Origin: Clostridium sp.
GTDB lineage: Bacteria; Bacillota; Clostridia; Lachnospirales; Lachnospiraceae
DNA: 53,959 bases
Assembly: GCA_023664775.1 (NCBI GenBank)
Contig: JAMPEW010000019.1
Span: 1-53,959, forward strand
Direction of reading: 5' to 3'
Positions 35,552-50,806 of the stretch are shown piece by piece. The notes under the pieces were generated by a model. It was not told where the DNA came from, made no database searches, and saw only the letters and a list, made by a program, of their open reading frames with translations. The position numbers were made by a program, and so were the translations under genes. Positions within the stretch are counted from its first letter, which is position 1, and the number at the start of each line of letters is the position of its first letter.

Positions 35552-36025
35552 TCAACAATCATATGCGTAATAATCTTTTATCCCAATTCCAATTGTTGTC
35601 CAATAATCTTCATCCTCATTATCATCATCTTTCCATATACCAACACTAATGCCCAAAAAACCATAGGAATCAGATTCACTATCATCAATCATATCATTGT
35701 TGTATTCAGACAAAATAGTAACTAATTCATTCATATTAATATCAAATGCAGATACACCATAAATATATGGCTTCAATAATCCTTCATGTCCTGCAAGAAA
35801 TTCTATAAATTCAAGATTGCCGTTTTTATCATAATCTAATGCCAATTCTGAATCATAATAATAGTGACGCCATGTTTCGCCTCCATATTGCAAGAAAATA
35901 TTTTCCGGATTACCTAATAATTTCATAATATGTTGTTTATTGTCTCCAAGGTATATCTCTTTTCCATCAAATACCATTTTTTCTAACGGAAACAAATCAA
36001 TCTTTATTCTTTCGCTTTTTTCCAT
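35552..36025 (-). CDS. Hypothetical protein of an accessory islet
   Basis: A 157-residue acidic, Tyr-rich soluble protein (IKIDLFPLEKMVFDGKEIYL, KLLGNPENIF, YYYDSELALDYDKNGNLEFIE). I recall similar uncharacterised proteins, often near toxin loci, but know no function. The C-terminus ends KDYYAYDC. In the overlapping frame, sequence past the stop reads MIVEIVPHLADPD-stop, possibly a gene scar. It starts 1 base after the membrane protein gene. Confidence 0.65.
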   Translation of the reverse strand: MEKSERIKIDLFPLEKMVFDGKEIYLGDNKQHIMKLLGNPENIFLQYGGETWRHYYYDSELALDYDKNGNLEFIEFLAGHEGLLKPYIYGVSAFDINMNELVTILSEYNNDMIDDSESDSYGFLGISVGIWKDDDNEDEDYWTTIGIGIKDYYAYDC

Positions 36026-36026
36026 A

Positions 36027-36419
36027 TTATGTTCCGTCCTTTCTTAGCACTTTGACTATATATTTAATCATATTTGTAATGAAAAGCAAAATAAGAAGCA
36101 ACAACAAAAAGGAAAAATATATAAACATACCAAGCTCCATGAAGCCCGATGACGTTTGCCAAATATTGAATCGTTCCAATATCAATATTAATATGCCTTG
36201 TAATATTACACACAATGCATATATTAATATTGTATTCCTAGAAATATAATGCCCCTTGTATCTGACTAAGTAAAATATGAATAAGCACATCAAAATGATA
36301 GCACTAACTATTAAAACAGCATCTGCATAGTCATTGACATTAACTATTAAAAATAAAAATAAGACAATATTACTAATTCCTGTTACAATTTTTTCCACCT
36401 GTGCCTCCAAGTGCATCAT
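36027..36419 (-). CDS. Four-helix membrane protein of the accessory islet
   Basis: A protein of about 130 residues with four hydrophobic helices (about residues 13-30, 35-52, 63-80, 92-117) and a basic C-terminus (VKVLRKDGT). No family recognised. Two ATGs (36419, 36416) and a TTG (36431) are possible starts, none with a clear ribosome site, so the 5' end may be damaged or reached by coupling. Its stop is 1 base before the next gene. Confidence 0.55.
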   Translation of the reverse strand: MMHLEAQVEKIVTGISNIVLFLFLIVNVNDYADAVLIVSAIILMCLFIFYLVRYKGHYISRNTILIYALCVILQGILILILERFNIWQTSSGFMELGMFIYFSFLLLLLILLFITNMIKYIVKVLRKDGT

Positions 36420-36489
36420 ATTCACGTTCAAGTTATTTGTTTTTAGGTTTTTCCTTCATATTACTTTACATAATATTTTTATGGTTTAT

Positions 36490-37602
36490 TCATTGCATAT
36501 GATACCGCAAATGCTCGCCCCCGCATATATCCTGAAACAGCTTCGGCAGCGGGTCGTCGATTACGGTTTTATCAGGCAAAATCACCTGTCCCGCATGAAG
36601 AAGCTGGCTTTTTAAGCCATATTTATTCCTAAAATAAGCATTAACAGACGCATCACCATACTTAACGTCCCCGATTACAGGATGTCCAAGTGCACGAAGC
36701 CCTGCCCTTATCTGATGGGATTTCCCCGTAATTAAATGGATTTTAAGAAGGGTATATGTTCCGTTGCTGCTTAGCGGGGTAAAATATGTTTCAATATAAT
36801 CATACTCCTCTTTTCGCAAATGGCTTTTTTGCGTTTTCCCTTTTATAACAGCGTCATTTTTTACTGCGGCGTTTTTTTCAAATACATCTGCACTTACAAT
36901 TTCAGACATATTTTTATCGCTGTCCTTTTTGATATATGCCCTTTGCTCCGTCTCCTGATCCAGCAAGCCCTTCACAACAGCAAAATAATATTTTTCAACC
37001 TCTCTTGTCCTTAAAATTCTTGACAGATACTGGCTTCCCTTCAGGGAAATTCCTGCAAGGATAATGCCCGACGTATTTCTGTCTAAGCGGTTGCACACGG
37101 AGGGCTTAAAGGTGCTGTCGGAAGGTACAAGTCCCTCCTTTTGACAGTAATCGGCTATCATCTCGTTTATGCTGTAATCGCCAGCCTTTGCCTTTTGTGA
37201 AAGTACCCCTGCATCCTTGTGGACTGCAAGAATGTCACTCGTTTTATATAAAATATTAAGATTGCTATAATTTTGTTTTTTCCTTGCCACATGATTAAAA
37301 ATTGCAGTGCCTGACATATCATCATATTTCGGATTTGCCGGTCTGCTTTTCTTGTCAAATCCAGCACCTGTACTATCTGTCTGCTTTTTAAATTTACCGA
37401 TTGTTTCCTCGGACAAAAAAAGCGTTACAATGTCATTGTCTGCAAGTATTTCATCTCCCGCCGCCTTCTTGCCATTTAACGTAATATTCTTTTTGCGAAG
37501 CATCTTGTATACAAATGAGGAAGGTGCAGCATCTAAATATTTCATAAGATATTTATTTAATCTTTGCCCTGCATCATTTGCTAAAATCTGAATCTCTCTC
37601 AT
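36490..37602 (-). CDS. RluA-family pseudouridine synthase with S4 domain
   Basis: A 370-residue protein. The N-terminal S4 domain (GQRLNKYLMKYL, MLRKKNITLNGKK) is followed by the catalytic domain with the Asp in CNRLDRNTSGIILAG and the motif LITGKSHQIRAGLRALGHPVIGD, read as two parts. It is a second, distinct paralogue of the rluD product at 3.4 kb and nearer to RluC types. An insert of about 50 residues rich in Lys and Asn precedes the last catalytic half. The exact rRNA uridines are not predictable. Confidence 0.9.
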   Translation of the reverse strand: MREIQILANDAGQRLNKYLMKYLDAAPSSFVYKMLRKKNITLNGKKAAGDEILADNDIVTLFLSEETIGKFKKQTDSTGAGFDKKSRPANPKYDDMSGTAIFNHVARKKQNYSNLNILYKTSDILAVHKDAGVLSQKAKAGDYSINEMIADYCQKEGLVPSDSTFKPSVCNRLDRNTSGIILAGISLKGSQYLSRILRTREVEKYYFAVVKGLLDQETEQRAYIKKDSDKNMSEIVSADVFEKNAAVKNDAVIKGKTQKSHLRKEEYDYIETYFTPLSSNGTYTLLKIHLITGKSHQIRAGLRALGHPVIGDVKYGDASVNAYFRNKYGLKSQLLHAGQVILPDKTVIDDPLPKLFQDICGGEHLRYHMQ

Positions 37603-37681
37603 ATCATACCCTTATTGTAATTACACTATATTAGAATAGCCATTTGGAAACAATTTACCTAAAATATACTTGCCGATTCCC

Positions 37682-38257
37682 CTATATGCTCATCTCTAAA
37701 ATTGTTTTTGCTATATGCTTATCGATGCTCCTGTTTCTGTCATTTGCCTCGCTTATGGAGTCTGCCTTTTTGATATATGCCTTTACATCGGAAAAAACAT
37801 AGATGGAATAATTGTATTTGCTGTCGGAAATACAGCCCGCAAGCCATTTTTCATAGTCCTTTTTCGTTTCGTCAAAGTGCTTGTCCATCGCAAGGGCACA
37901 TAGTTTTCCGTTTTTTACACATATGGACTGATAAAACCGCATGCCCTCATATCTTGAAATGGCAACATCATAAAGCAGGATTCCATGTTCATTTTTAATT
38001 CCGTCCCTGATGCTTTTGTAATCCTCCTCAGCAAGGGGCTTAAATGTTACGCACATAATAAATGCAATAAAAAACTTTGCAAGGGGAAGCGCCAAAAGGA
38101 TTGCAAAAACTACAATAACCCTGCTTGTTGAGCCCCACAAAAGCAGCATTGTTATAACAATAAATTCAATCATTGCCGCAAATACAATGACGCCAATCAG
38201 CTTACCCAGCCTATAATATTTCAGATAACCATATTCGCCCTTTTCATGCTTTTTCAT
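37682..38257 (-). CDS. Hypothetical two-helix membrane protein
   Basis: A 191-residue protein with two membrane helices (about residues 20-42 and 46-70) and a soluble C-terminal half of about 120 residues (YEGMRFYQSICVKNGKLCAL, KYNYSIYVFSDVKAYIKKA). No family recognised. The ATG directly abuts the stop of the methyltransferase gene (TAAATG), so it is translationally coupled to it. Confidence 0.75.
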   Translation of the reverse strand: MKKHEKGEYGYLKYYRLGKLIGVIVFAAMIEFIVITMLLLWGSTSRVIVVFAILLALPLAKFFIAFIMCVTFKPLAEEDYKSIRDGIKNEHGILLYDVAISRYEGMRFYQSICVKNGKLCALAMDKHFDETKKDYEKWLAGCISDSKYNYSIYVFSDVKAYIKKADSISEANDRNRSIDKHIAKTILEMSI

Positions 38258-39679
38258 TTAAGTAAGTCTCCATCCCGGAAGATATTTATTTTTTAAGACG
38301 CCGTTATTTAGCTTTCCCCAGCCTAAAGGATAGCCGTCAACCAAAACGAGCGCCCAGCCATTTTTACCCTCCGCATCTATCGTCTCGCCCTTTAAGTATT
38401 TTGTTACCCTGATATCGCCACAGGATAACTTAATGGTATTTTTGTAATCATTGCCTGAAAGCCACATTGCAAATGCCTGGCTTGGCTCAAAACGGTTTTT
38501 CTTTATCTCGCCAACAAAAAGACCGCAGCGCAATATCCGAAGTCCCCGAACCTCTGGAAAGCACTCAGGTATATAATAAAGCTTGTCCTGTGAAGCTTCA
38601 AAGCGTGAAAAATCAAAGGTGCGGTTCATTCCTTTAAAAAATTCAGTTACCTCATCTGTAAGCCTTGAAGCTCTTATTTGATAGGAACCTATATCATGCG
38701 TTGATTTATCGTTATTTTCAAAGCCATAAGCCGCCTTATTATGTTCGGAACAATCGTTTTTGCTTCCATCACCCTTTTTTACAAGGCACACAAAATGTCC
38801 CTCGCCCTCTAATCTTTGCGGCCAAAGCCTGACACATTTTTTTAGATCGGCATTATTTGTATTTCCCCACTCAGGATGTCCCCCGTCAAATGCCTCCCAT
38901 CTGTCAAATTCACAGAGGGAGAGCCTTTCATCTAAGGAAAGCATATACTCAACCGACTGCTCATTTTCCATGGGGGAAAATGTACAGGTAGAATAAACAA
39001 GCTTGCCGCCGGGCTTTAGCATGTCAACGGCATAACCGACAATTTCCCTCTGTAGTTTTGCAAAGCTTTCGTTTTTATCATCAGTCCATGCCGTAACCAT
39101 GGAGGTGGATTTACGGAACATGCCCTCCCCCGAGCACGGTGCGTCAATCAGTATTTTGTCAAAAAATTCAAAAAAGCGTTCCTTCAGCTTATGGGGAGCT
39201 TCACTTATGACAAGTGCATTTCCTATGCCGAACAGCTCCATATTTTTCAGCAGTGCCTTTGCCCGCGAAGCGCTTATGTCGTTGGAAACTAAAAGCCCCG
39301 TACCGTTTAACTTTGCTCCAAGCTCCGTTGATTTGCCGCCGGGCGCTGCACATAAATCCAAAATCTTGTCCTGCTTACATACCGGAAGCACGTTTGCAGG
39401 CGTCATCGCACTTGGCTCCTGAATATAATAAAGCCCTGCATAGTAATACGGATGCTTGGAGGGCTTATCAAGCGTTTCATCATAATAAAAGCCGTTTTCA
39501 CACCATGGTACGGCTTTTAGGTGAAACGGATTTATTTTAAGGAAGTCCGAAACACTGATTTTCATGGTATTAATTCTAATGCCATGAAACATAGGCGCAT
39601 CAAGGCACTTTTCATACTGCTCATATTCGTTACCGAGAAGTGCTCTCATATTTGCTTCAAATTTCTTTGGTAATTCCAT
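38258..39679 (-). CDS. RsmF/RsmB-type rRNA cytosine-C5 methyltransferase
   Basis: A 473-residue NOP2/Sun-family enzyme that methylates C5 of a cytosine in 16S rRNA using SAM. Motifs: QEPSAMTPANVLPV, SAM-binding LDLCAAPGGKSTELG, motif IV DAPCSGEGMFRKS and motif VI with the catalytic Cys in VYSTCTFSPMENE. The C-terminal PUA-like RNA-binding region (KYLKGETID, VLVDGYPLGWGKL) matches RsmF. It lies 8 bases downstream of hflX. Confidence 0.93.
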   Translation of the reverse strand: MELPKKFEANMRALLGNEYEQYEKCLDAPMFHGIRINTMKISVSDFLKINPFHLKAVPWCENGFYYDETLDKPSKHPYYYAGLYYIQEPSAMTPANVLPVCKQDKILDLCAAPGGKSTELGAKLNGTGLLVSNDISASRAKALLKNMELFGIGNALVISEAPHKLKERFFEFFDKILIDAPCSGEGMFRKSTSMVTAWTDDKNESFAKLQREIVGYAVDMLKPGGKLVYSTCTFSPMENEQSVEYMLSLDERLSLCEFDRWEAFDGGHPEWGNTNNADLKKCVRLWPQRLEGEGHFVCLVKKGDGSKNDCSEHNKAAYGFENNDKSTHDIGSYQIRASRLTDEVTEFFKGMNRTFDFSRFEASQDKLYYIPECFPEVRGLRILRCGLFVGEIKKNRFEPSQAFAMWLSGNDYKNTIKLSCGDIRVTKYLKGETIDAEGKNGWALVLVDGYPLGWGKLNNGVLKNKYLPGWRLT

Positions 39680-39687
39680 AAAAATAG

Positions 39688-40920
39688 CTATATATCAATC
39701 GTTTTATCCGCATAGGCCCTGATATATATACCGTCCTCTCTGTAGTCTTCCTCTAATATTGTTCCCGATTTTCTGATACGGTTAATCATTCCTGCGTCAT
39801 TGTAAGAAATCAGCTTTTCAATGTAATTTCTGCTCTTTAAGACCTCTGCTTCAATTACAGCCGAAAGCTTATCAAATCCCTTTTCATGCTTTGCGGCAAT
39901 ATAAACAGTCTCCTCCGCCTTAAAATCCTTTATGACAGGCATCTGCCCGACCTTATCAATCTTGTTAAAGGCAGTTATGATAGGCTTATCCTGTATGCCG
40001 AGTCTGCCTAAGGTATCATATACCGTAGCAATCTGCTCATCTGCATTTGGGTTGGAAATATCAACAACATGGAGAATAATATCCGCATATTTTGCTTCCT
40101 CAAGTGTTGAACGGAATGCATTAATCAGGTGATGGGGCAGCTTTTTTATAAAGCCTACCGTATCGGTTATGATTATTTCCTGACCGTTGCCAAGGGTATA
40201 GCTTCTTGATGTAGGGTCAAGCGTGGCAAACAGCTTATCCTCCTCCAAAACGCCCGCAAGGGTAAGATGGTTTAAAAGCGTTGATTTTCCTGCATTTGTA
40301 TAGCCTACAATCGCAACTACGGGAAGGCTTCCGTTGATACGCTGCTTGCGCATGACCTCCCTGTGCTGCTTGACATCCTCAAGCTCCCTTCCCAGCTGTG
40401 CGATACGCTCTTTTATGATACGTCTGTCAACCTCAAGCTTTTTTTCACCGGGTCCCCTTGTACCGATACCTCCGCCAAGCCTTGACAGGGAGCTTCTCAT
40501 TCCCACAAGCCTGGAGGAACGATATCTAAGCTGTGCAAGCTCGATTTGTATTTTGCCCTCCTTCGTGGAGGCTCTTGATGCAAAAATATCCAGTATGACG
40601 GTTGTACGGTCAATGATTTTTGTATCAATCAGCTCCTCAAGATTTTTAATTTGCATGGGACTAAGCTCATCATCAGAGCAAACCCCTGTCGCTCCAAGCT
40701 CCTCCACAAGTGCTTTTAGCTCCAGCGTCTTACCTGAACCGATATAGGTGGCTTTGTCTATGCTTTCCTTTTTCTGTATCATCCTTCCGACCACAACCCC
40801 GCCTGCAGTTTTAATAAGCTCCTCAAGCTCATCCAAATTAGCATCAATATCCTGTCCGTCGTCAAGGTCAACACTTAACAGTATTATTTTTTCTGTAATT
40901 TCGTCTGTGTTATACATCAT
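39688..40920 (-). CDS. hflX: Ribosome-associated GTPase HflX
   Basis: A 410-residue GTPase that splits stalled ribosomes, mainly in stress. The N-terminal HflX domain has GGVVVGRMIQKKESIDKATY, read in part, and GTRGPGEKKLEVDRR. The G domain has GYTNAGKSTLLNHL (G1), DTVGFI (G3) and NKID (G4). Two ATGs, 40920 and 40917, are equally possible. In the same strand run is another ribosome-acting GTPase (43.1-45.6 kb). Confidence 0.95.
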   Translation of the reverse strand: MMYNTDEITEKIILLSVDLDDGQDIDANLDELEELIKTAGGVVVGRMIQKKESIDKATYIGSGKTLELKALVEELGATGVCSDDELSPMQIKNLEELIDTKIIDRTTVILDIFASRASTKEGKIQIELAQLRYRSSRLVGMRSSLSRLGGGIGTRGPGEKKLEVDRRIIKERIAQLGRELEDVKQHREVMRKQRINGSLPVVAIVGYTNAGKSTLLNHLTLAGVLEEDKLFATLDPTSRSYTLGNGQEIIITDTVGFIKKLPHHLINAFRSTLEEAKYADIILHVVDISNPNADEQIATVYDTLGRLGIQDKPIITAFNKIDKVGQMPVIKDFKAEETVYIAAKHEKGFDKLSAVIEAEVLKSRNYIEKLISYNDAGMINRIRKSGTILEEDYREDGIYIRAYADKTIDI

Positions 40921-40994
40921 ATCGCACCATTACTTTACATAATATTATTATTGTCATCTGATAATTTGCCACTACAATTAAATAACGAACCCTC

Positions 40995-41849
40995 TTAATT
41001 CAGATTGTATATGTCATGTACAACCTCTGTGTCAACATTTACCCTTGTGTATAGAAAATCATACAGCTCTCTCCCTGCCGCATCATTCGGATATTTTCCG
41101 ATGTATTCCTCCGCAAGAGAAAATGCTTTTTCGTAATTTTGTAATTTGCTGTAGGACATAATCCGAAGGTATAACAAATCATCCGTATACTCGTCACTTA
41201 TGTCAAGATGAGCCTCTATGTAGGAAAGCGCTTTGTTGTAATCCTCTATCTGCATGTAATAGGCGGCATATTTGTACGCAATCTTTCCCGATGTTCCGTA
41301 TATACTCGTGTATATGTCGTAATATTGAATCATATTTTCATAGTCGCCGTTTTTTTCATAGCAATTTGCCGCATAAAGGCTCATTTCCGTATAGCCCTTA
41401 TCTACAGCCTGTGCAAAAACAGCCGCATTGCTTCCGTAATTGCCATTTGCATAGCTTTCAAGACAAAGGGACAGATTTTGCAAAAACTTAATGCTGTCAT
41501 TGTTATAATATTTGTCATTGTAATCCGTTAAAATCCTGCCGTATGCGTCATAAGCATCATGGAACTGATTTAAACGGATATGACAGTCAGCCTTATACAT
41601 CAAAATGTCAATGTCCGCTTCCTTTGAAAACCACTGCTTACAGGAAAGTGCGTCATCAAAATACTCTATTGCCTGTGTGTAGTCTGCATTATGATAGCAC
41701 GCTACCCCCTTATCCCGATAGCTGTATTTTTTTGTAAAAAGATGCGGTATGCTTATCAGCAGCATAAGGGCAATGATTACTGCAAAGGTTGTCCTTACAA
41801 TAATCTGCGACCTTCGTTCCAGTTGTTTTTTCCGTCTTTGTTTATTCAT
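40995..41849 (-). CDS. Membrane-anchored TPR protein
   Basis: A 284-residue protein with a very basic N-terminus, one membrane segment (about residues 18-36) and about six tetratricopeptide-like repeats (YHNADYTQAIEYFDDALSC, YEKNGDYENMIQYYDIY, QIEDYNKALSYIEAHL, LQNYEKAFSLAEEYIGKYP). TPRs scaffold protein complexes. The domain faces outside if the single helix is a signal anchor. It is 3 bases downstream of the VanY-like gene, suggesting a shared envelope role. Confidence 0.85.
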   Translation of the reverse strand: MNKQRRKKQLERRSQIIVRTTFAVIIALMLLISIPHLFTKKYSYRDKGVACYHNADYTQAIEYFDDALSCKQWFSKEADIDILMYKADCHIRLNQFHDAYDAYGRILTDYNDKYYNNDSIKFLQNLSLCLESYANGNYGSNAAVFAQAVDKGYTEMSLYAANCYEKNGDYENMIQYYDIYTSIYGTSGKIAYKYAAYYMQIEDYNKALSYIEAHLDISDEYTDDLLYLRIMSYSKLQNYEKAFSLAEEYIGKYPNDAAGRELYDFLYTRVNVDTEVVHDIYNLN

Positions 41850-41852
41850 ACT

Positions 41853-42731
41853 TTAATTCCCCAAAAGCTGATAAAATTCTTCGAGGGTAAGGTCATGCTC
41901 GTGCATAAATTTTGCAGCCTCCTCACCAACATACCTGAAATGCCACGGCTCATAGTCCATACCCGTCACCTCAACCTTGTCCTTTGGATATCTCAAAATA
42001 AAGCCATAGCTATAGCAGTTGTCAGTCAACCATTTTACAGTCTCATTTGTCTCCAGCTCCACCGTAAGCGAAAAATGCTCCTCATCTGAAAGGTCAATGG
42101 CAAGTCCGGTCTCATGCTCACTGTAACCTACCATTGGTACCGTTTCAGAGGTTTTCGCCCGAGCCTCCTCCTCGCTTAAGCCTTGGTCCATAAGCGCCTG
42201 AATATTTCTGTCAATAACGCCCTGCTGGGCTTCCTTATCCCTGTATGCAGCAACAATGTTATAATGTAAACCCGTGTCATTGCATGCCTTTGTAAATCTG
42301 TATAAATCTATATACATCTGCTCATCAATGATAAAGCCGCTGTTTAAGGTATGCTGTTCAAAGGTATAATCCTCAGGCAGAGGGTTGTCATTATTTACGA
42401 GAAGCAGCAGTGCTTTATTTCTCTCATATATCTCATTCGCCTCCTTGGAAAGCCCTAAATCGGGATTTACTGCTTCCGTGGTGGCATTTGTAGGCGTAGC
42501 CGTGCTTTCCTTTTTTTTCTCCTTTTTATCAGGCTTCAAAAGGTTTGCAAACAGTACGACAACTAAAATTATGGCAGCAAGTGCAAAAATGGTATACATT
42601 AAAATGCTGTAATCACCGGCTTTTGTGTGCTTAACTAAAAGTCTTACATATTTTTTGAAAAATCGACGGATTTTCTTAAATGCCCGCTTTATTTTTTTAC
42701 CGAGGGCAAGAAAAAATGATTTTACATTCAT
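41853..42731 (-). CDS. M15-family D,D-carboxypeptidase (VanY-like)
   Basis: A 292-residue protein with a basic N-terminus, one membrane segment (about residues 43-64), a Ser/Thr/Ala spacer and an M15B peptidase domain. Zinc ligands are in SEHETGLAIDLSD (H-x6-D) and EPWHFRYVG (H). It would remove D-Ala from peptidoglycan precursors or mature wall. A lone vanY-type gene without van regulators does not imply glycopeptide resistance. GGAG-type ribosome site precedes the ATG. Confidence 0.92.
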   Translation of the reverse strand: MNVKSFFLALGKKIKRAFKKIRRFFKKYVRLLVKHTKAGDYSILMYTIFALAAIILVVVLFANLLKPDKKEKKKESTATPTNATTEAVNPDLGLSKEANEIYERNKALLLLVNNDNPLPEDYTFEQHTLNSGFIIDEQMYIDLYRFTKACNDTGLHYNIVAAYRDKEAQQGVIDRNIQALMDQGLSEEEARAKTSETVPMVGYSEHETGLAIDLSDEEHFSLTVELETNETVKWLTDNCYSYGFILRYPKDKVEVTGMDYEPWHFRYVGEEAAKFMHEHDLTLEEFYQLLGN

Positions 42732-42772
42732 TTGCTGTCTCCTTTGTATATAATGAATTTTTGTCTTACGGA

Positions 42773-43081
42773 TTAATCAAGCATTTCCAAAATTTCATTC
42801 TTTGGTATGGCACCGACCACTCTCTTTACCGGAGTTCCTTTTTTAAATAGCATAAGCGTCGGTATTGACATTACACTGTAGGTTGTGGCAATGTCGCTTG
42901 CCTCGTCTATGTTGCATTTGCAAACCTTAACGTCAGGACGTTCATTTGCAAAATCCTCAATTATGGGACCCATCATTTTACACGGTCCACACCAGTCGGC
43001 ATAAAAATCGACCAAAACTACATCATCTGCTTTTAGAACCTCTTTTTCAAAATTGTCTGAACTAACATGTGTAACTCCCAT
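42773..43081 (-). CDS. trxA: Thioredoxin
   Basis: A 102-residue thioredoxin with the active site WCGPCK, the cis-proline loop MSIPTLMLF and the ending region GAIPKNEILEMLD. It reduces protein disulfides in the cytoplasm. It lies 18 bases downstream of the GTPase fusion gene and is probably cotranscribed with it. Confidence 0.97.
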   Translation of the reverse strand: MGVTHVSSDNFEKEVLKADDVVLVDFYADWCGPCKMMGPIIEDFANERPDVKVCKCNIDEASDIATTYSVMSIPTLMLFKKGTPVKRVVGAIPKNEILEMLD

Positions 43082-43099
43082 AATACTTCCTCCTTTTCA

Positions 43100-45634
43100 T
43101 TATAAATTGTATTGTTCCCTCAATTCCTTTGCCTTTTCATTTATATCAATGATAAGCTCCCTGGAGGACATAATGCTGCAATCCTGTCCTCTTGTTATCT
43201 GCTGTATCAGTCCGTCGGAGCTTGCTACGGTTATATTATAACACTTTCTGCCCGAATTGGTAAACTTTTCTATAAAAGCGTCGGCAGTTTCGCCCTCTTT
43301 TGTATGAATTACGGTTATATTGTCAATTTCCTCGGTCTGTCCCCTGTTATTTTTCAGCCTGTAGCCGTCAAAAACAAGCATAACGGGAATATCAGTCGTG
43401 GCTCTGTAATTGGCAAGAAGCTGTATCAGCTTGTCCTTTGCAGCCACAATATTTGTTTCGGCAAGGCTCTTTAATTCCTCATCTGCAAATATTACATTGT
43501 AGCCGTCCACAATCAAAAGCTTATCAAGGGGCTTAGTCTGTTTATACCGTACCTTATGCTCAGGCTCGGCAACTTTCTTTTCATGCTCATGCTTTTCTGC
43601 CCTTTTGTTTGCATATGCCGTCCTGTTTATGATTTCGTCTATCTCGTCAGCTCCGATGGAATAATCAAATGGTTTATTTTTTGCAGTGGCATATGCATAA
43701 GACGAGGTTTCCTCTTTTATATCATCAAAAACATGCATATGCTGTTCCACCTCATACCATGGAACAATGTAGCCCGAGCCGTGTGCACAAAATACCGATG
43801 AAGAAAGGTTTACGGCATCCTTGTCAGGGTCATAGGCTGATTGTTCAATAACCTCCGCCTCATTGTGACATGGCATATATCCCTTAAAGGTACATGAAAT
43901 ACTGCCAAGCCCCTTTGTGTAGGCATTTACATTTTCCTGATAGTCCCTCAGTGTTGCAACCGGTCCATATCCGTATAAAACTGCCGTATCTGCTTCCAAT
44001 GTATGGCTTGCTATAACTGCATAAAGCAGGTCAAGCTCTGTCATTGCTTTTCCAAGAAGCGAGGCAGGAATTTTAAGCTCAAAATCATAGTAAGGCTCAA
44101 GCAGTCTGGAATCCGCCTTCATAAGTCCCTGTCTGACAGCCCTGCCTGCCGCCTGCCTGAAATCTCCGCCTACCGTATGCTTGTCATGGGCTCTCCCATT
44201 TATGACGGCAATTTTTACGTCCGTAAGGGGCGAGCCTGTCAGCACACCCTTTAAGCTGCGTGACTTTAAGCAGGAAATAACGAGCCTCTGCCAGTTTTTA
44301 TCAAGCTTGTCCGTACTGCACTCAGAAAAAATGCTGATACCGCTTCCACGCTCTCCTGGGGAAAGCTTAAGATGTACCTCCGCATAATGCCGCAAGGGTT
44401 CAAAATGTCCAACGCCTATTACGGCATTTGTGATTGTTTCCCTGTACTCGATATCTCCCATGCCATACGTTACATCAAGGTTATAGTTTCGTTTCAGAAG
44501 CCTTGACAGAATTTCTAACTGCACCTGCCCCATTATTTTTACGTTTATGTCTCCCCTTTGCTCGTCCCAGCTTATATGAAGCTCCGGAAGCTCGTCATTT
44601 AAGGAGGCAATATCCTGATACACCTTTTTGCTGTCGGCATCAGGCGGCAAAATAAGCCTGTATTTTAAGACCGGCTCAAGAATGGTAAGCGTTTCCACTG
44701 TCTCACTGTCTGAAATAATCTCGCCTGCACATGCGCCGCTAAGACCCGTAACGGTGCATATATCGCCTGCCGCCACAGTCTGTACGGCACTATATTTTTC
44801 TCCTGAATACAGCCGTATCTGTGTGACCTTCTCACCATTTATGACATCTCTTGTATTTAAACTGCCGCCTGTAATCTTCATGTGGGTCAGGCGCACATTC
44901 TGCTCATCATATGATATTTTGTATATTGCCGTTTTCAGTGCATCCCCATAAGATGCTTCAAGACAATAAGCGGAAAGTCCGTCAAGAAATTCATTTATTC
45001 CCTCAAGCTTTAAGGAAGAACCGAAAAAGCATGGAAATATAAGACGTTTTTTTATCAGCCCTGCAATATCCGACCTGTCTATAGTATACCCGTTTAAATA
45101 CTTATCAAGCAGATTTTCCTCGGACATTGCAATTTGTTCCATGTCATTTTCATTAAATTCCTTACAGGAAAAATCAATGCACTGTCCGGAAAGTCCGCTG
45201 GAAAGCGCCTTCATAATCTGTCCCTTGTCGGCAAGCGGCATATCCATCTTATTTACAAATAAAAACACGGGAATATCGTACCTTTTAAGAAGCCTCCACA
45301 GGGTTTTTGTATGTGCCTGAATCCCCTCAGTCCCGCTTATTACAAGAATTGCATAATCTATAACCTGAAGCGTTCTCTCTGCCTCAACAGAAAAATCGGT
45401 ATGTCCGGGCGTATCAAGTAAAACAAACTGTGTATCATCATAGGAAAATCTTGCCTGCTTGGAAAATACAGTTATTCCACGGCTTCTTTCGATTTCATCC
45501 GTATCAAGATATGTGTTCTGCTTATCAACTCTCCCCAAATTTTTTATTGCTCCCGCAGTAAAAAGAAGCGCCTCGGATAATGTAGTTTTTCCGGCATCCA
45601 CATGTGCCAGTATTCCTATTGTTATTTTTTTCAT
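43100..45634 (-). CDS. Tet(M)-like ribosomal GTPase fused to a Rae1/YacP-type NYN domain
   Basis: An 844-residue fusion. Residues 1-640 align by motif with EF-G-like ribosomal protection proteins: G1 AHVDAGKTTL, G2 RGITVF, G3 DTPGHTDF, G4 NKMD, then domains II to V. After a charged linker (about 640-680) comes a NYN/PIN-like domain of YacP type: LLIVDGYNVIFADEEL, MLVFDGYRLK, HTKEGETADAFIEKF, VASSDGLIQQ, MSSRELIIDI. B. subtilis Rae1 (YacP) cuts mRNA in the ribosomal A site. The fusion suggests a ribosome-targeted GTPase carrying an mRNA endonuclease. Divergence from Tet(M) makes tetracycline resistance uncertain. It starts with a clean ATG. Confidence 0.9.
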   Translation of the reverse strand: MKKITIGILAHVDAGKTTLSEALLFTAGAIKNLGRVDKQNTYLDTDEIERSRGITVFSKQARFSYDDTQFVLLDTPGHTDFSVEAERTLQVIDYAILVISGTEGIQAHTKTLWRLLKRYDIPVFLFVNKMDMPLADKGQIMKALSSGLSGQCIDFSCKEFNENDMEQIAMSEENLLDKYLNGYTIDRSDIAGLIKKRLIFPCFFGSSLKLEGINEFLDGLSAYCLEASYGDALKTAIYKISYDEQNVRLTHMKITGGSLNTRDVINGEKVTQIRLYSGEKYSAVQTVAAGDICTVTGLSGACAGEIISDSETVETLTILEPVLKYRLILPPDADSKKVYQDIASLNDELPELHISWDEQRGDINVKIMGQVQLEILSRLLKRNYNLDVTYGMGDIEYRETITNAVIGVGHFEPLRHYAEVHLKLSPGERGSGISIFSECSTDKLDKNWQRLVISCLKSRSLKGVLTGSPLTDVKIAVINGRAHDKHTVGGDFRQAAGRAVRQGLMKADSRLLEPYYDFELKIPASLLGKAMTELDLLYAVIASHTLEADTAVLYGYGPVATLRDYQENVNAYTKGLGSISCTFKGYMPCHNEAEVIEQSAYDPDKDAVNLSSSVFCAHGSGYIVPWYEVEQHMHVFDDIKEETSSYAYATAKNKPFDYSIGADEIDEIINRTAYANKRAEKHEHEKKVAEPEHKVRYKQTKPLDKLLIVDGYNVIFADEELKSLAETNIVAAKDKLIQLLANYRATTDIPVMLVFDGYRLKNNRGQTEEIDNITVIHTKEGETADAFIEKFTNSGRKCYNITVASSDGLIQQITRGQDCSIMSSRELIIDINEKAKELREQYNL

Positions 45635-45722
45635 TTCAAATCCCGCCGGTTGTACATCGCCACATTATAATTAACTATTATCTTATTAATTTTATCAATT
45701 TATGACGTACTATGCAATCATT

Positions 45723-47414
45723 TTATAACACACCCCAGCCGATTTCAGGGTTTGGATAGCTTGTGTAGCCCGGAAGGGGTGACGCTTCACGTATCAAATA
45801 AGCCTTAAGCTTTTCTCCATACATAAATGGGTCGTTTCCATTTACAATTCCCCACTCCATAAGTCTTACTGCCCTTGCGGAAACATAAGGCGTGGCAAAG
45901 GAGGTTCCTGACACTGCCGTATATCCCCCGCCTGTTCGTGGAACGGTTATATTTACCCCCGGAGCCGATACATCCGGCTTCACCTCATTGTTTATTGTGT
46001 AGCCCCTTCCCGAAAATGCCGCATAGGACAGCGTTCTTTCATCATATGCCCCAACGCTTATGGTATTTCTTGCCGTAGCAGGTATTGTCATTGTTGTGTA
46101 CTTAGAGGGTGTGGAAAATATTACATCGGCAGAGGTTCCCTCTGAGACGGGAAGCCATATGTCCAGCCTGCCGTCAAGGATTGATTTTGGGTTAAAGCTT
46201 ATGGTCCATATGCCCTGTGATAGATATCCGTTTTGTGGAATAATTGAAATGTACGTTTCCTGATTTTTGTTAAAGGGTGTCGGATAGCCATTAATAACGC
46301 TGATATCCATGCCGGGTATTTTGTAGGTCATTACCTCCTGATATAAATTAAAGGGTCCAATCATGCTGCCGTCAGGCGCCATGAGAAATATGTCCACAAC
46401 ATCGAGAAAGCTTCTCCATATTTGAAGGTTAAGGCTTACAACATAAGGATTTACAATAAAGTCGGTTCTCTGCCATGACGTGTTTCCAAGCATAAGCTGT
46501 GCATGTCTTGCCGCTTCGCCCTCATTTCCCATGCCTGTGACGATGCTTACCCTTGCAATTTCGGCAACGGAATCGATATATTCCTCAACCATTGAATTGG
46601 AGCCATGGTCGCCATAATTGTTCCCATAGCTTAAATTGATAACAAGCGGAAGCCCGTAATTTATTGCGTAGGATATTGCAAAATCAATTGCCATGATAAG
46701 GGATGACGTGCTTGGAAGTCCGCCAGCATAGCCGTTATCAAGCTTAATTGCAAGCAGCTTTGCATTTGGAACCGTATCTGCAATAATGCCTGCAACCGCA
46801 GTTCCATGTCCTGAAAAATCAAAGGCAGGAAGTGTTATCCCGCTTTCCAAAGCCTCGTTAATATCGTTCTCCGAATAAAATCTGCCGATACCATAATATG
46901 CGGAAACAACATCATCAGGGTTTCTTTCATTCGTCTGATCCCATATGCCTGCAAGCCTTGTATTGCCGTTTTCGTAACGAAAAATCTCGTGGTTATAATC
47001 AATGCCTGAATCTATGACGGCAACGAGCACGCCCGCCCCCGTAAAGGAAGATGCCTCCAAAATGCTTTGCTGTGAGGCGGAAATTTCATCGAAAAAAATA
47101 TCAGAAGCAGTAAAGCCTTCAAGATAAATGCTTTTCGGCTTTTCAATAAATATAATTTCAGGGCTTCTGCTGAGCCGTTCAATCATCTCGCTTCTGATTC
47201 GTATAATTGCAAAGCTATTTTTTAATGCAACATAGGTAAAGCCAAGCGATAGGCTTAACGCCTGCAAATCTCCTATATATTTTACAATCAGCTCCCATTG
47301 GTCAAAGGCATTGTTGTAGCCGACGTCAAGGTCAAGTGATTTACGTCTTTCATCCTGAGGCGTCGCAAGCGCAAGGTTTAATTCCGTGCCAAGCTTTGAA
47401 GGATCCTCAACCAT
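45723..47414 (-). CDS. S8 subtilisin-like serine protease, Csp-like
   Basis: A 563-residue subtilase with an N-terminal propeptide-like part (about 1-120). The triad is complete: Asp in VAVIDSGIDYNHE, His in SGHGTAVAGIIAD and Ser in GTSFATPYVSARA. An insert between the His and Ser regions (about residues 290-440) is typical of the clostridial CspA/B/C group, where CspB activates the spore cortex lytic enzyme. No signal peptide is visible, as in Csp proteins. The sporulation genes sigE and spoIIGA are nearby, supporting a spore link, but other subtilases share this layout. Confidence 0.85.
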   Translation of the reverse strand: MVEDPSKLGTELNLALATPQDERRKSLDLDVGYNNAFDQWELIVKYIGDLQALSLSLGFTYVALKNSFAIIRIRSEMIERLSRSPEIIFIEKPKSIYLEGFTASDIFFDEISASQQSILEASSFTGAGVLVAVIDSGIDYNHEIFRYENGNTRLAGIWDQTNERNPDDVVSAYYGIGRFYSENDINEALESGITLPAFDFSGHGTAVAGIIADTVPNAKLLAIKLDNGYAGGLPSTSSLIMAIDFAISYAINYGLPLVINLSYGNNYGDHGSNSMVEEYIDSVAEIARVSIVTGMGNEGEAARHAQLMLGNTSWQRTDFIVNPYVVSLNLQIWRSFLDVVDIFLMAPDGSMIGPFNLYQEVMTYKIPGMDISVINGYPTPFNKNQETYISIIPQNGYLSQGIWTISFNPKSILDGRLDIWLPVSEGTSADVIFSTPSKYTTMTIPATARNTISVGAYDERTLSYAAFSGRGYTINNEVKPDVSAPGVNITVPRTGGGYTAVSGTSFATPYVSARAVRLMEWGIVNGNDPFMYGEKLKAYLIREASPLPGYTSYPNPEIGWGVL

Positions 47415-47468
47415 GTTTCACCACATCATTTATCCATATTAATACTATAATACGGCATTACATTTTTT

Positions 47469-49019
47469 TTATGCTGATTTTTTGATAAATCTGTTTATAA
47501 TTCTGTTTACAATTTCCTTGGATTCGCCAAATTCCCGAAGCCTTGAATAAAACAGCAAAAATACCAGATTTGAAACGACGGCGCAGACAAGAAGCTTTAC
47601 GATAACTGCGCCCATTCCCGCCCCGGGAACAAGCATACATGCAAAATAACATAAAACACATGCAAGCATTGTTATGACGGCATAAAAGAATAACCGAAGG
47701 ACATATTCCCGTTTGCTTCTCTTAAACATTGTCTTAAATATGTTGTGTAAAATCCAAGGCATGCCGACGCAGGAAACCGATAGAACCGATGCGACAAGAA
47801 CGCCGTAAATTCCTAAGAACTGTACGAGTATTATGTTTAAAATCAGATTTGCAAAGGCAGTTGCAAGGGGTCTGAATCTGTCCTCATGCCATATTCCCGC
47901 CGCATTTTTGTAGGTGTGAAGCACAAGGTTCATCTGATCCACAAAGAAATATACCGTAAAGCAAATATCAATGACAATTCCCAGCGTATTTTCACTGCCT
48001 GCCCATATCATCATAAACGGATGCAGCAGACAGAGCAGACAACAGCAGCATATGCCAACAAGCCATGCCACGATAAACGTAAATTTATTCATGTCATTAT
48101 AATTTTTTTCTTCCGTTTCCATTATGATGCTGTTTCCAATTCCTGCCGTGCAGGAGGCATAGATAACCTGAAGCAGCGTAATGACGGATTTTACAATATA
48201 GTAATAGTTATTATAAATTGCAAGAGGCGTAAGACCCATGAAAATGGATATTACGATTGAATCCATTGACATAACCATAACCATGCCAAGTCTTGAGGTA
48301 AATAAATCCTTGATACGCTGGTTTATATTTCTTGTAATATCAGGCGAAAGCTCTCCCTCCGGCTTATATTCAGGATATTTTTTAATGGAAAAATATGCCA
48401 CCACAATATTTGTAAGCACCTGTGTAAGAAATGAAACGATAAGGTACAGATAGTAGCTTTTAAATATAATTACAACAAGGAATTGTCCGACATACTGGAA
48501 TGTATTTGTAATGAGGGAAACCTTGCTTGTAATATCGTCCCTCTGATGTGCCGTAAGCAGGCTGCTTCTGTAAGCAAAAAGCCAATAAGACACAACCGTA
48601 CACGCAAGATTCAAGAGATAAATGATGTATATATTTACGTCGGAGGGAACCTCCCCGACTGCATTTTTCGCAATCAGATGTGGCACAAACGGTAAAACAA
48701 TTGTACCTGCCACTGCGATAACCGCACCGATAATTCTGTAATATCTTCGATAAAGCTTTAAAAGGGCACATATCTCCTGCTTATCATTTCTAATGATAGG
48801 CTCATACATGCTGTAAACCATAGCCGAGCCAACACCCAGCTCCGCCATATTAAGCACAAGAAGAATAGACGAAAACAAGCCATTTAATCCTAAATATTTC
48901 ATACCCATGAAATACATAATGGCTGTTCTCATCAAAAATGGCAGTAATATCTGATACACCTTCAGTATCATGCCAAAAAATATATTTCTTGTAGCATTGG
49001 CTACTCTGCCGTCCTCCAC
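47469..49019 (-). CDS. Polysaccharide/lipid flippase (MOP superfamily)
   Basis: A 516-residue membrane protein with about 12-14 helices, of the oligosaccharide flippase type. The N-terminus EDGRVANATRNIFFGMILK is typical of Firmicutes polysaccharide transporters. The start is the GTG at 49019 with AAGGAGGAG 6 bases upstream. The frame is open further back to 49157, but those codons are the tRNA-Leu gene read in translation (VSELADEADSKSV, VQVPPPA), a well-known artefact. It stands alone without glycosyltransferases, so its cargo is unknown. Confidence 0.88.
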   Translation of the reverse strand: MEDGRVANATRNIFFGMILKVYQILLPFLMRTAIMYFMGMKYLGLNGLFSSILLVLNMAELGVGSAMVYSMYEPIIRNDKQEICALLKLYRRYYRIIGAVIAVAGTIVLPFVPHLIAKNAVGEVPSDVNIYIIYLLNLACTVVSYWLFAYRSSLLTAHQRDDITSKVSLITNTFQYVGQFLVVIIFKSYYLYLIVSFLTQVLTNIVVAYFSIKKYPEYKPEGELSPDITRNINQRIKDLFTSRLGMVMVMSMDSIVISIFMGLTPLAIYNNYYYIVKSVITLLQVIYASCTAGIGNSIIMETEEKNYNDMNKFTFIVAWLVGICCCCLLCLLHPFMMIWAGSENTLGIVIDICFTVYFFVDQMNLVLHTYKNAAGIWHEDRFRPLATAFANLILNIILVQFLGIYGVLVASVLSVSCVGMPWILHNIFKTMFKRSKREYVLRLFFYAVITMLACVLCYFACMLVPGAGMGAVIVKLLVCAVVSNLVFLLFYSRLREFGESKEIVNRIINRFIKKSA

Positions 49020-49052
49020 CTTAAGCTCCTCCTTAGGCTGCGGCTTATATAA

Positions 49053-49136
49053 TGCCGGTGGCGGGACTTGAACCCGCACGACGTCGCCGTCAACAGATTT
49101 TGAGTCTGCCTCGTCTGCCAATTCCGACACACCGGC
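49053..49136 (-). tRNA. tRNA-Leu, anticodon CAA
   Basis: An 84-base type II tRNA. The 7-bp acceptor stem GCCGGTG/CACCGGC ends in discriminator A with no encoded CCA. The anticodon stem-loop GCAGA-CTCAAAA-TCTGT carries CAA, reading UUG. A variable arm and the T-loop GGGTTCAAGTCCC are present. It is followed directly by the flippase gene on the same strand. Confidence 0.96.
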
Positions 49137-49193
49137 AAGCAACAGAAAATATAACATATTTTACCGAGTGTGTCAAGAATATAGACAGTCTTT

Positions 49194-49916
49194 TTACTCA
49201 AGCTTCATCATAGTTCTTTTCAGCCTTTTGATTATTTTCTTTTCAAGCCTTGATATGTATGACTGTGAAATACCAAGCAAATCAGCCACTTCCTTTTGGG
49301 TCATTTCCTCAATGGTGTCCCCAAGCCCGAATCTGAGCTCAATAATAAGACGCTCCCTGTCGCTCAAGGTTTCAAGTGCCTGCATTAAAAGCTCTTTATC
49401 TATCTCGTCCTCAATATCCTTGTATATCATATCATCGTCCGTACCAAGTATATCGGACAAAAGCAGCTCGTTACCGTCCCAATCTACGTTTAAGGGTTCA
49501 TCAATGGACACTTCAATTCTCGTTTTAAGACTTCTTCTGAGATACATAAGAATTTCATTTTCAATACATCTGCTTGCATAGGTTGCCAGCTTGATATTCT
49601 TATCCGCCTTAAATGTATTTATTGCTTTAATTAGCCCGATTGTTCCAATTGAAATTAAGTCCTCTACGCCTATCCCCGTATTGTCAAATTTCTTTGCAAT
49701 GTATACAACAAGTCTAAGATTATGCTCAATGAGCGTTCTTTTTACATCATCCTCCTCCAGCCTGCATATAAATTCTGCTTCCTCCTCAGGAGCAAGCGGT
49801 GCAGGTAAAATTTCCGAGCCTCCTATATAATGAACCTCATTTTTAGGAAATAATATAAAATTGGATATATTTTTTATGCTGAATCTGATTTTTTGATTGC
49901 TAACTAAACTAATCAT
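49194..49916 (-). CDS. sigE: Sporulation sigma factor SigE (pro-form)
   Basis: A 240-residue sigma-70 family factor. The hydrophobic N-terminal pro-sequence (about residues 1-30, [13 protein letters not shown] then VHYIGGSE) is removed by SpoIIGA before activity in the mother cell. Regions: [11 protein letters not shown] and [17 protein letters not shown] (region 2), [21 protein letters not shown], read in part, and region 4 [15 protein letters not shown] with helix-turn-helix [21 protein letters not shown]. The partner protease gene is 32 bases upstream. sigG, usually next after sigE, is replaced by the tRNA and flippase. Confidence 0.96.
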
Positions 49917-49948
49917 TTGAATACTCCTCTCTCTTTTTTTAGGTCATA

Positions 49949-50806
49949 TCACATACTGTTTTTTTGACGTATCATGCATGCGTGCAGTAAAATCTCGTAA
50001 TCGCTGCCGCCTATGGTATTTCTGCTTATTCCGGCAACAACATTTGTAAAAACGGCATTTGTATCAGGCAGGCAAAGTCTGTTAAGCTTAAATCCGGGCA
50101 TGACTGCGCAAGCCTCGCTTATGGTGCTGTAGCAAATGGGATAAATCGATATATCACTTGCTTCCCCTGCTCTTACATAATCAAACACACCGTTTTTTTT
50201 ATATGCTTCCAAAAATTTATTTATATTCTCCCCAAGTAACCTTTTAGAAAGCCTGCGGCTTATAATAATGACAGGACAATCCGTGGCATAATCAAAAAGC
50301 ATATTTCCTGAATCCAAGTATCCCCTGCAGCGTATACATTTATGATTTGCCAAAATAGAAACATTACATATGTTCGTTTCATATTCCCTGTATTTTTTTA
50401 CATTCCGGCAAAGCAGTATCAGAAGAAACACAAATAGTAAAAAAACCGGATATACTGCCCTGCTTTTGATTTTATTTGCAGCAGCTCCCCATATGCCGTA
50501 AATAACAATCATTGCAAGCAGTATTGTAAGCAGCAGCCTGATACTGCCCCAAAAGGATTTCAGGGTAAAAAAACCTGTCGTCATAATTATGTATATGGCA
50601 ACATATAATATATAATGTAAAAATTTGTTACCGCCCATCATCAAAATGTATTCTGCCGTGGTAACAGCACCGGTAAGCGCAGCCCAGATAACCACTCTTG
50701 TTATTTTTATGCGCATGTTTAAAATGGCAGCCGCAAGAGCAAGAACAACTGCATTTATTATGCTGCTCCATACAAGCATGACATCCGCATATAGCACATA
50801 TGTCAT
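49949..50806 (-). CDS. spoIIGA: Sigma-E processing peptidase SpoIIGA
   Basis: A 285-residue membrane-bound aspartic protease that processes pro-SigE. The N-terminal half has five hydrophobic helices. The C-terminal protease half has the catalytic Asp in CRGYLDSGNMLFD. The ATG at 50806 gives MTYVLYADVM and follows GGGGG. A frame extension up to 50947 is rejected. Identification is secured by the adjacent sigE. A TATAAT lies at 50843-50838, with two weak Spo0A-box-like sites further upstream. Confidence 0.93.
   Translation of the reverse strand: MTYVLYADVMLVWSSIINAVVLALAAAILNMRIKITRVVIWAALTGAVTTAEYILMMGGNKFLHYILYVAIYIIMTTGFFTLKSFWGSIRLLLTILLAMIVIYGIWGAAANKIKSRAVYPVFLLFVFLLILLCRNVKKYREYETNICNVSILANHKCIRCRGYLDSGNMLFDYATDCPVIIISRRLSKRLLGENINKFLEAYKKNGVFDYVRAGEASDISIYPICYSTISEACAVMPGFKLNRLCLPDTNAVFTNVVAGISRNTIGGSDYEILLHACMIRQKNSM

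Follow-up and report, generated by a model that had tools for sequence, protein, structure and literature searches.

One gene in the stretch of DNA analysed here (53,959 nucleotides of contig JAMPEW010000019.1 from Clostridium sp., hereafter the window) encodes, in a single polypeptide of 844 residues, a GTPase of the EF-G/Tet type and a nuclease domain of the YacP/Rae1 (NYN) type. This fusion gene is under purifying selection and represents neither a chance product nor decay, its GTPase part was fused once, and in the genomes carrying it the fusion is usually the cell's only Rae1. Our best explanation, to which we give about an even chance, is that the fusion is a Rae1 delivered by its own GTPase to ribosomes with an open aminoacyl site (A site), the two halves working as a coupled mechanism. 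As part of the same explanation, the free form would have given way to fused Rae1 across most Lachnospiraceae genera and in some other clostridia.

Architecture and conservation of the fusion

The gene runs as a single frame from an ATG start through 844 codons without an internal stop, and its product comprises, in this order, a five-domain GTPase, a Cys/His extension, a linker of about 70 residues, and the NYN domain (Table 1). In the GTPase half, Pfam recognised GTP_EFTU (3.8e-48), EFG_III, EFG_IV, and EFG_C, with EF-G_D2 scoring slightly below its cut-off, and in the C-terminal part NYN_YacP (1.5e-36; 126.3 bits versus a cut-off of 24.6). The solved structures closest in sequence to residues 1-589 were TetO, TetM, and EF-G, while the C-terminus matched B. 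subtilis YacP/Rae1 with an E-value of 7e-16. An earlier note on this DNA had described such a GTPase with a full YacP/NYN domain at its C-terminus: the fusion itself is borne out by the intact frame and the Pfam matches, but "full" does not hold, as the match stops at position 138 of the 166 in the profile and about 28 C-terminal profile positions are missing in the window protein. Within the source genome (60 contigs, 95.9% complete), the fusion is the sole YacP place found. Just one further protein there has an EF-G domain IV, namely a 710-residue frame on contig C23 that is presumably EF-G itself.

Conservation was assessed in 172 of the 173 fused loci, which amount to 170 distinct fusions, the partial locus L232 being left out. 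In the GTPase, K16, D74-H78 (DTPGH), K129, and D131 are present in all 170 and N128 in 169, so that the fusion displays the features of a translational GTPase, namely the G1-G4 motifs and the His of DTPGH, which has a catalytic role in this class of enzymes. For the nuclease, the earlier note had proposed conservation of the acidic residues as a check on its reading, and they are indeed kept: D710, D756, and D785 occur in 170/170 fusions and D807 in 169, the exception being cut by a contig end. These four residues align with D7, D53, D81, and D104 of Rae1, of which D7 and D81 are reportedly the catalytic pair studied by mutation. Domain IV, with which EF-G and the Tet proteins reach into the A site, carries two nearly invariant loops, GxGHFEPLRHYAEV, in which G407, G409, H410, E412, P413, and H416 are found in every fusion, and AHxKHTxGGDF at the tip; a strict version of the tip pattern matched 165 of the 173 fusions and missed 8.

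The stretch after domain V is similarly constrained (C589, Y601, D606, S613, and F615 in 170/170, H634 in 169, C616 in 167, and W626 in 166). H590 was found in 149/170, and C589, H590, C616, and H634 lie around the end of domain V (residues 586-636, 43727-43879); the Cys/His motif occurs in unfused relatives as well. This cluster could represent a metal site or a docking patch. The linker that follows is rich in E, K, and R and varies from 68 to 164 residues (median 84; 71 in the window). A semi-conserved motif within it, E664 (160/170), I668 (166/170), and T672 (149/170), is stated from column counts, since a motif pattern matched just 84 of the 170 fusions.

Counted from S823, the tail of the NYN domain is shorter than 30 residues in 42 of 170 fusions, including the window (where it occupies 43100-43168) and one copy cut by a contig end, and reaches 30 residues or more in 128. 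Tail length is bimodal, and the two classes hint at two functional subtypes. With B. subtilis Rae1/YacP (PDB 5mq8, 5mq9) the fusion shares the NYN_YacP profile, the four aligned active-site aspartates, and presumably the cutting of mRNA in the A site. Rae1, however, is a free protein, possesses a C-terminal tail that the window protein lacks, and is encoded beside yacO, whereas the NYN domain of the fusion follows a GTPase on the same chain and is not encoded near rlmB.

Selection was estimated from nonsynonymous (dN) and synonymous (dS) divergence, reading 12 of 15 relatives (L311, L314, and L316 were left out) and taking figures for the five above 60% identity; two rows, L193 and L310, gave identical figures and are apparently one record. 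Against a 95%-identical relative, dN was lower than dS in every segment, and the NYN domain showed no nonsynonymous change, albeit at a dS of only 0.03. Against three relatives of about 60% identity, dN of the NYN domain was 0.28-0.30, with dS near 3 or saturated. A degraded fusion was ruled out by these values together with the invariance of the residues above.

Table 1. Positions of the fusion gene, its parts, and selected neighbouring genes in the window
Feature	Position	Strand	Basis or remark
Whole fusion gene, 844 residues	43100..45634	-	single frame, ATG
G domain, residues 4-223; AHVDAGKTT, RGIT, DTPGH, NKMD intact	44966..45625	-	Pfam and alignment
Domain II, residues 235-301	44732..44932	-	Pfam EF-G_D2, 25.9 bits, just below cut-off 27
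Domain III, residues 320-391	44462..44677	-	Pfam
Domain IV, residues 393-507	44114..44458	-	Pfam
Domain IV loop GxGHFEPLRHYAEV, residues 405-420	44375..44422	-	alignment of 170 fusions
Domain IV tip loop GRAHxKHTxGGDFRQA, residues 480-495	44150..44197	-	alignment
Domain V, residues 510-592	43859..44107	-	Pfam
Extension after domain V, residues 593-636	43727..43858	-	alignment of fusions and unfused relatives
Variable E/K/R-rich linker with one semi-conserved motif, residues 664-672	43523..43726	-	alignment
NYN_YacP (Rae1-type) domain, residues 707-842	43109..43516	-	Pfam and alignment
Thioredoxin, 19 nucleotides downstream of the fusion	42773..43081	-	cluster in 4/173 loci
HflX-type GTPase, 2.2 kb from the fusion	39688..40920	-	cluster in 5/173 loci, including the window and a near-twin
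Subtilase with CspB prodomain, directly upstream	45723-47414	-	cluster in 5/173 loci

Distribution and origin

The family was inferred from named relatives to be the Lachnospiraceae, and our census covered 110 of its genomes, one per genus. YacP was detected in 100 of them, in frames that were of fusion length (840 or more) in 87, standalone in 8, and intermediate in 5. From the 87 fusion-length loci, 72 were retrieved and all 72 contained both halves; they belong to a set of 92 long-frame loci retrieved by place, in which both halves were found 92/92 times, as they were in the window and in all 80 named loci (L232 partially). The architecture is therefore common in the family and not confined to a few degraded fusions, a prospect that the earlier note had raised against its own interpretation. 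Among the intermediate frames, those of G382, G385, and G300 seem to be cut by contig ends, whereas that of G356 is a standalone YacP with a long tail adjoining an rlmB-like gene. In G331 the fusion gene is split by a frameshift in the linker (L326, C93:5000-8600), possibly through a mistake in the assembly or because the gene was recently divided. A second YacP place was found in two family genomes, both times as a fragment.

Beyond the family, YacP was present in 256 of 295 genomes sampled from the order. A search of equal size that used an unfused GTPase returned positives in 120 of 295 genomes, consisting of 81 fused-length frames, 35 unfused-length frames (a few of which sit at contig ends), and 4 shorter pieces. 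In the phylum sample YacP occurred in 155 of 299 genomes, and among the rows listed at least 18 were fused-length by frame length, 2 of them belonging to different orders within the class and 12 to different classes. Among the named carriers are Anaerostipes butyraticus, Blautia, Mordavella massiliensis, Clostridium punense, Anaerovorax odorimutans, Fusibacter, Desulfosporosinus acididurans, and Agathobacter rectalis. Within the window's own genus, YacP was found in 20 of 31 genomes and in only 11 of the 13 good ones; hence, the fusion gene is dispensable rather than essential.

Where the fusion came from is indicated by unfused GTPases of clostridia (e.g. L166, L171, L290), which share its domain IV tip and C-terminal extension but have no NYN domain. 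In a careful tree of 34 GTPase rows taken from a 59-row set, all 17 fused rows formed one clade (support 100/99) that was sister to two unfused proteins (100/98) and nested among 12 unfused KHTxGGDF proteins. Outside lay L165, which is unfused but more distant, as well as two tet-like rows and EF-G. The quick tree of all 59 rows, built with 32 of the 173 fused and 20 unfused proteins, recovered the same single fused clade with a support of 96. Two independent fusions were considered and rejected, as the GTPase tree shows one, with which the tree of the NYN domain agrees weakly. Members of the unfused KHTxGGDF clade were L166, L168, L170, L171, L175, L191, and the unfused rows of L273-L301.

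The unfused relatives end 18-26 residues past the start of an S-V/I-F-C motif (24 rows, three of which are repeats of a gene), in the extension after domain V, and therefore the fusion appended linker and NYN domain at the point where a pre-existing protein naturally ended. The GTPase hardly changed, with only two of its positions clearly distinguishing the 170 fused proteins from 20 unfused ones. In B. subtilis, rae1 is encoded beside yacO, an RlmB homologue (PMC6613710), and likewise an rlmB-like gene was present in 24 of 32 standalone yacP loci. In contrast, it was found in just 1 of 172 fused loci despite mostly longer stretches, and was absent from the window, although some misses may reflect the sensitivity of a search with one query. 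Because rlmB neighbours the free yacP gene but not the fused one, a single fusion most likely moved the nuclease to the GTPase locus. The free copy was then most likely lost in the usual case, since by hand tally only 3 of the 81 order-sample genomes with a fused-length frame contain another YacP place.

Possible action on the ribosome

Free Rae1 is stated to attack mRNA within the A site (PMC12320835; PMC6613710), whereas Tet(M) binds the A site in a GTP-dependent manner (PMC8161019); therefore, a GTPase joined to Rae1 may select ribosomes with an open A site, with the NYN domain following. In the working cycle that we propose, whose order of events and trigger are speculative, the GTPase half in its GTP form would bind a 70S ribosome with an empty or slow A site and insert into the decoding centre its domain IV tip, with the loops HFEPLRHY and AHxKHTxGGDF. 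Domain IV would be pulled back upon hydrolysis of GTP, whereupon the NYN domain on its flexible tether of about 70 residues would move into the vacated A site and cut the mRNA as free Rae1 is stated to do in B. subtilis, and the truncated complex would be handed to transfer-messenger RNA (tmRNA) and SmpB. The source genome encodes tmRNA, SmpB, and a MutS2-size Smr protein, all of which could be available to handle the cleavage products. Ribosome binding, A-site entry, and mRNA cleavage by the fusion are predicted here from the behaviour of its relatives. As the NYN domain and domain IV cannot share one A site, the steps would have to be sequential or take place on neighbouring ribosomes.

The unfused KHTxGGDF GTPases are candidates for a partner or loader acting in trans on free Rae1. 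Also in keeping with a joint action, the separate halves tend to go together in the family, an unfused GTPase being found in 5 of the 8 genera whose YacP is standalone (in one of these, G386, as a frame of 541 residues) but in none of the 10 that lack YacP (p 0.0065, Fisher test). A more specific form of our proposal, which we put forward tentatively, would combine a one-chain, GTP-driven rescue nuclease that times the entry of its tethered Rae1 with unfused GTPases that load free Rae1 in trans.

Several observations weigh against a GTPase-delivered Rae1. A single A site cannot hold both domain IV and the NYN domain, and a hand-over must be assumed. In B. subtilis Rae1, a change of R166 to Pro acted like the loss of Rae1 (PMC6613710), and the NYN domains of the window and of 41 other fusions are without the region of this residue. 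YacP is missing altogether from 10 of the 110 family genera and from 2 of the 13 good genomes of the window's genus. The NYN tree backs a single origin only weakly, by one branch with a support of 77 that splits 31 fused from 32 free domains; it used 31 of the 32 fused rows, as L131 was missed by the motif pattern. A different motif pattern, applied elsewhere, missed the NYN domain of L297, although this gene (G001) was shown to be fused by other searches. Finally, at the level of the order, the association of the unfused GTPase with free YacP is weak and amounts to a trend (about 30 of 174 versus 2 of 39 by hand tally, p 0.08), and genera do not count as independent samples.

The main rival explanation is plain tethering or co-expression, in which the NYN domain finds the A site alone, the GTPase has a translocation- or rescue-type job of its own, and no mechanical coupling exists. 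Such an arrangement would agree with the length and variability of the linker, with the existence of both halves as unfused gene families, and with a GTPase that hardly changed on fusion; however, the fusion has been kept in most of the family without free Rae1 beside it, and the otherwise free linker contains the semi-conserved motif around E664, I668, and T672, so we regard the explanation as unlikely, if deserving of attention. More improbable, in our view, is an action of the pair on rRNA or tRNA, with the GTPase recognising a subunit or an immature ribosome and the NYN domain trimming RNA in assembly or quality control. Characterised Rae1 is stated to cut A-site mRNA (PMC12320835), and the proteins with which the GTPase half aligns, Tet(O)/Tet(M) and EF-G, bind the A site. 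In favour, the first role suggested for NYN was the maturation of rRNA and tRNA (as cited in PMC4342817), free yacP has the gene of an rlmB-type rRNA methylase as its partner, and yacO and rae1 mutations in B. subtilis were not additive (PMC6613710).

We also considered that the fusion might be a tetracycline ribosomal protection protein to which a nuclease has been joined. Atkinson et al. 2015 described Tet proteins bearing a YacP-like NYN domain in ten clostridial species and thought of a new mechanism of resistance (PMC4342817). The architecture is apparently identical to ours, and theirs is the earliest report that we found. In RefSeq, too, the A. rectalis fusion (NZ_CP143948.1, L331 3093-5894) is named a TetM/TetW/TetO/TetS tetracycline resistance ribosomal protection protein. 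Like Tet(M) and Tet(O), the G domain is missing most of the G' insert of EF-G, some 50 residues that the EF-G alignment skips, and residues 1-589 align continuously, from end to end, to TetO and TetM, the closest solved relatives over this region. Likewise, the best NCBIfam model was tet_protect, but its score of 407.6 bits stayed below the curated cut-off of 775. Furthermore, Pro509 of Tet(M), in the tip that expels the drug, overlaps the tetracycline site (PMC8161019, PMC7456112), and K485-H486 of the fusion align with Tet(M) P509-V510, a Lys occupying the P509 position in 168 of 170 fusions. The fused clade also lies outside the two tet-like rows (100/99 in the 34-row tree), of which only L163, flagged as a long branch, passes the tet cut-off. 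Thus, the fusion fails three tet features, namely the curated score, the Pro509 tip, and a position in the tet clade, and it differs additionally from Tet(M)/Tet(O) in its Cys/His extension after domain V and its NYN domain. The family-wide distribution and the lack of a relative in a viral scan likewise speak against a resistance gene, despite two copies on plasmid-named, non-mobilizable records. We therefore consider this explanation very improbable, and the idea of the earlier note that drug-bound ribosomes are recognised loses its footing on the same grounds. As for EF-G, the fusion shares with it the plan of domains II-V and the GTPase motifs, but the source genome encodes a separate EF-G-type protein, and the tip loop of EF-G reads YHxVDSSE.

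Genomic surroundings and significance

Clusters of neighbouring genes, counted over the 173 loci, revealed no conserved neighbour; those of the window that were listed in clusters reached at most 5 loci. The commonest clusters (36, 21, and 17 of 173 loci), which occupied scattered positions, look like generic transporters and signalling proteins. Downstream of the window fusion are genes for thioredoxin, a VanY-type peptidase, a TPR protein, HflX, and RsmF, and upstream are those for a Csp-type protease, a flippase-like protein, a sigma factor, and SpoIIGA. The earlier note had drawn attention to HflX being encoded about 2 kb away, and an HflX-type gene does lie at this distance, yet its linkage to the fusion was dropped from consideration given the rarity of the cluster (Table 1). 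Families of the subtilase and the CspB prodomain recur in a gene upstream of another fusion (L330 2783-4408).

A mobile or phage gene was likewise rejected, as no relative of the fusion was confirmed in the viral scan and no PADLOC family matched. A full-length match occurred in the "Bacteriophage sp." record MT835514.1 (H11, L330), which looks like bacterial DNA filed as phage, because the fusion there adjoins uvrD, feoB, mraW, and Glu/Gln-tRNA synthetase genes; a second "Bacteriophage sp." record (H12) was also matched. The plasmid-named records mentioned above are those of A. rectalis (252 kb) and Monoglobus (518 kb). With respect to regulation, an Rfam search at the gathering threshold in 36000-50000 gave no leader RNA but only a tRNA at 49053-49136; promoter-like sites numbered 13 versus 8.6 expected (standard deviation 3.1), and terminator-like sites 1 versus 3.3 expected. 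The tRNA gene (minus strand) overlaps the listed start of the flippase-like open reading frame at 47469-49157, and the true start of this frame therefore probably lies further in.

The earlier note knew of no characterised example of this architecture. With regard to function this agrees with the literature that we searched by title, in which no functional study of the fusion was found, whereas the domain fusion as such had been described in 2015 (PMC4342817); a 2018 survey of Rae1 distribution may also mention it. Compared with that report of ten species and a resistance role, what differs here is the spread of the fusion through most genera of the family, its single origin, and the missing tetracycline tip residue. 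The Monoglobus copy is named "translation factor GTPase family protein", but with a gene found by frame length in 87 of 110 genera and named tetracycline resistance in at least one gut species, resistome counts could be inflated.

The fusion is probably a one-piece ribosome rescue tool of many gut clostridia. If this is true, a GTPase-coupled cut of mRNA would take place inside the ribosome, and the fusion would show how a Rae1-type nuclease gains access to the A site, which would also bear on free Rae1, for which the unfused GTPases are candidate loaders.

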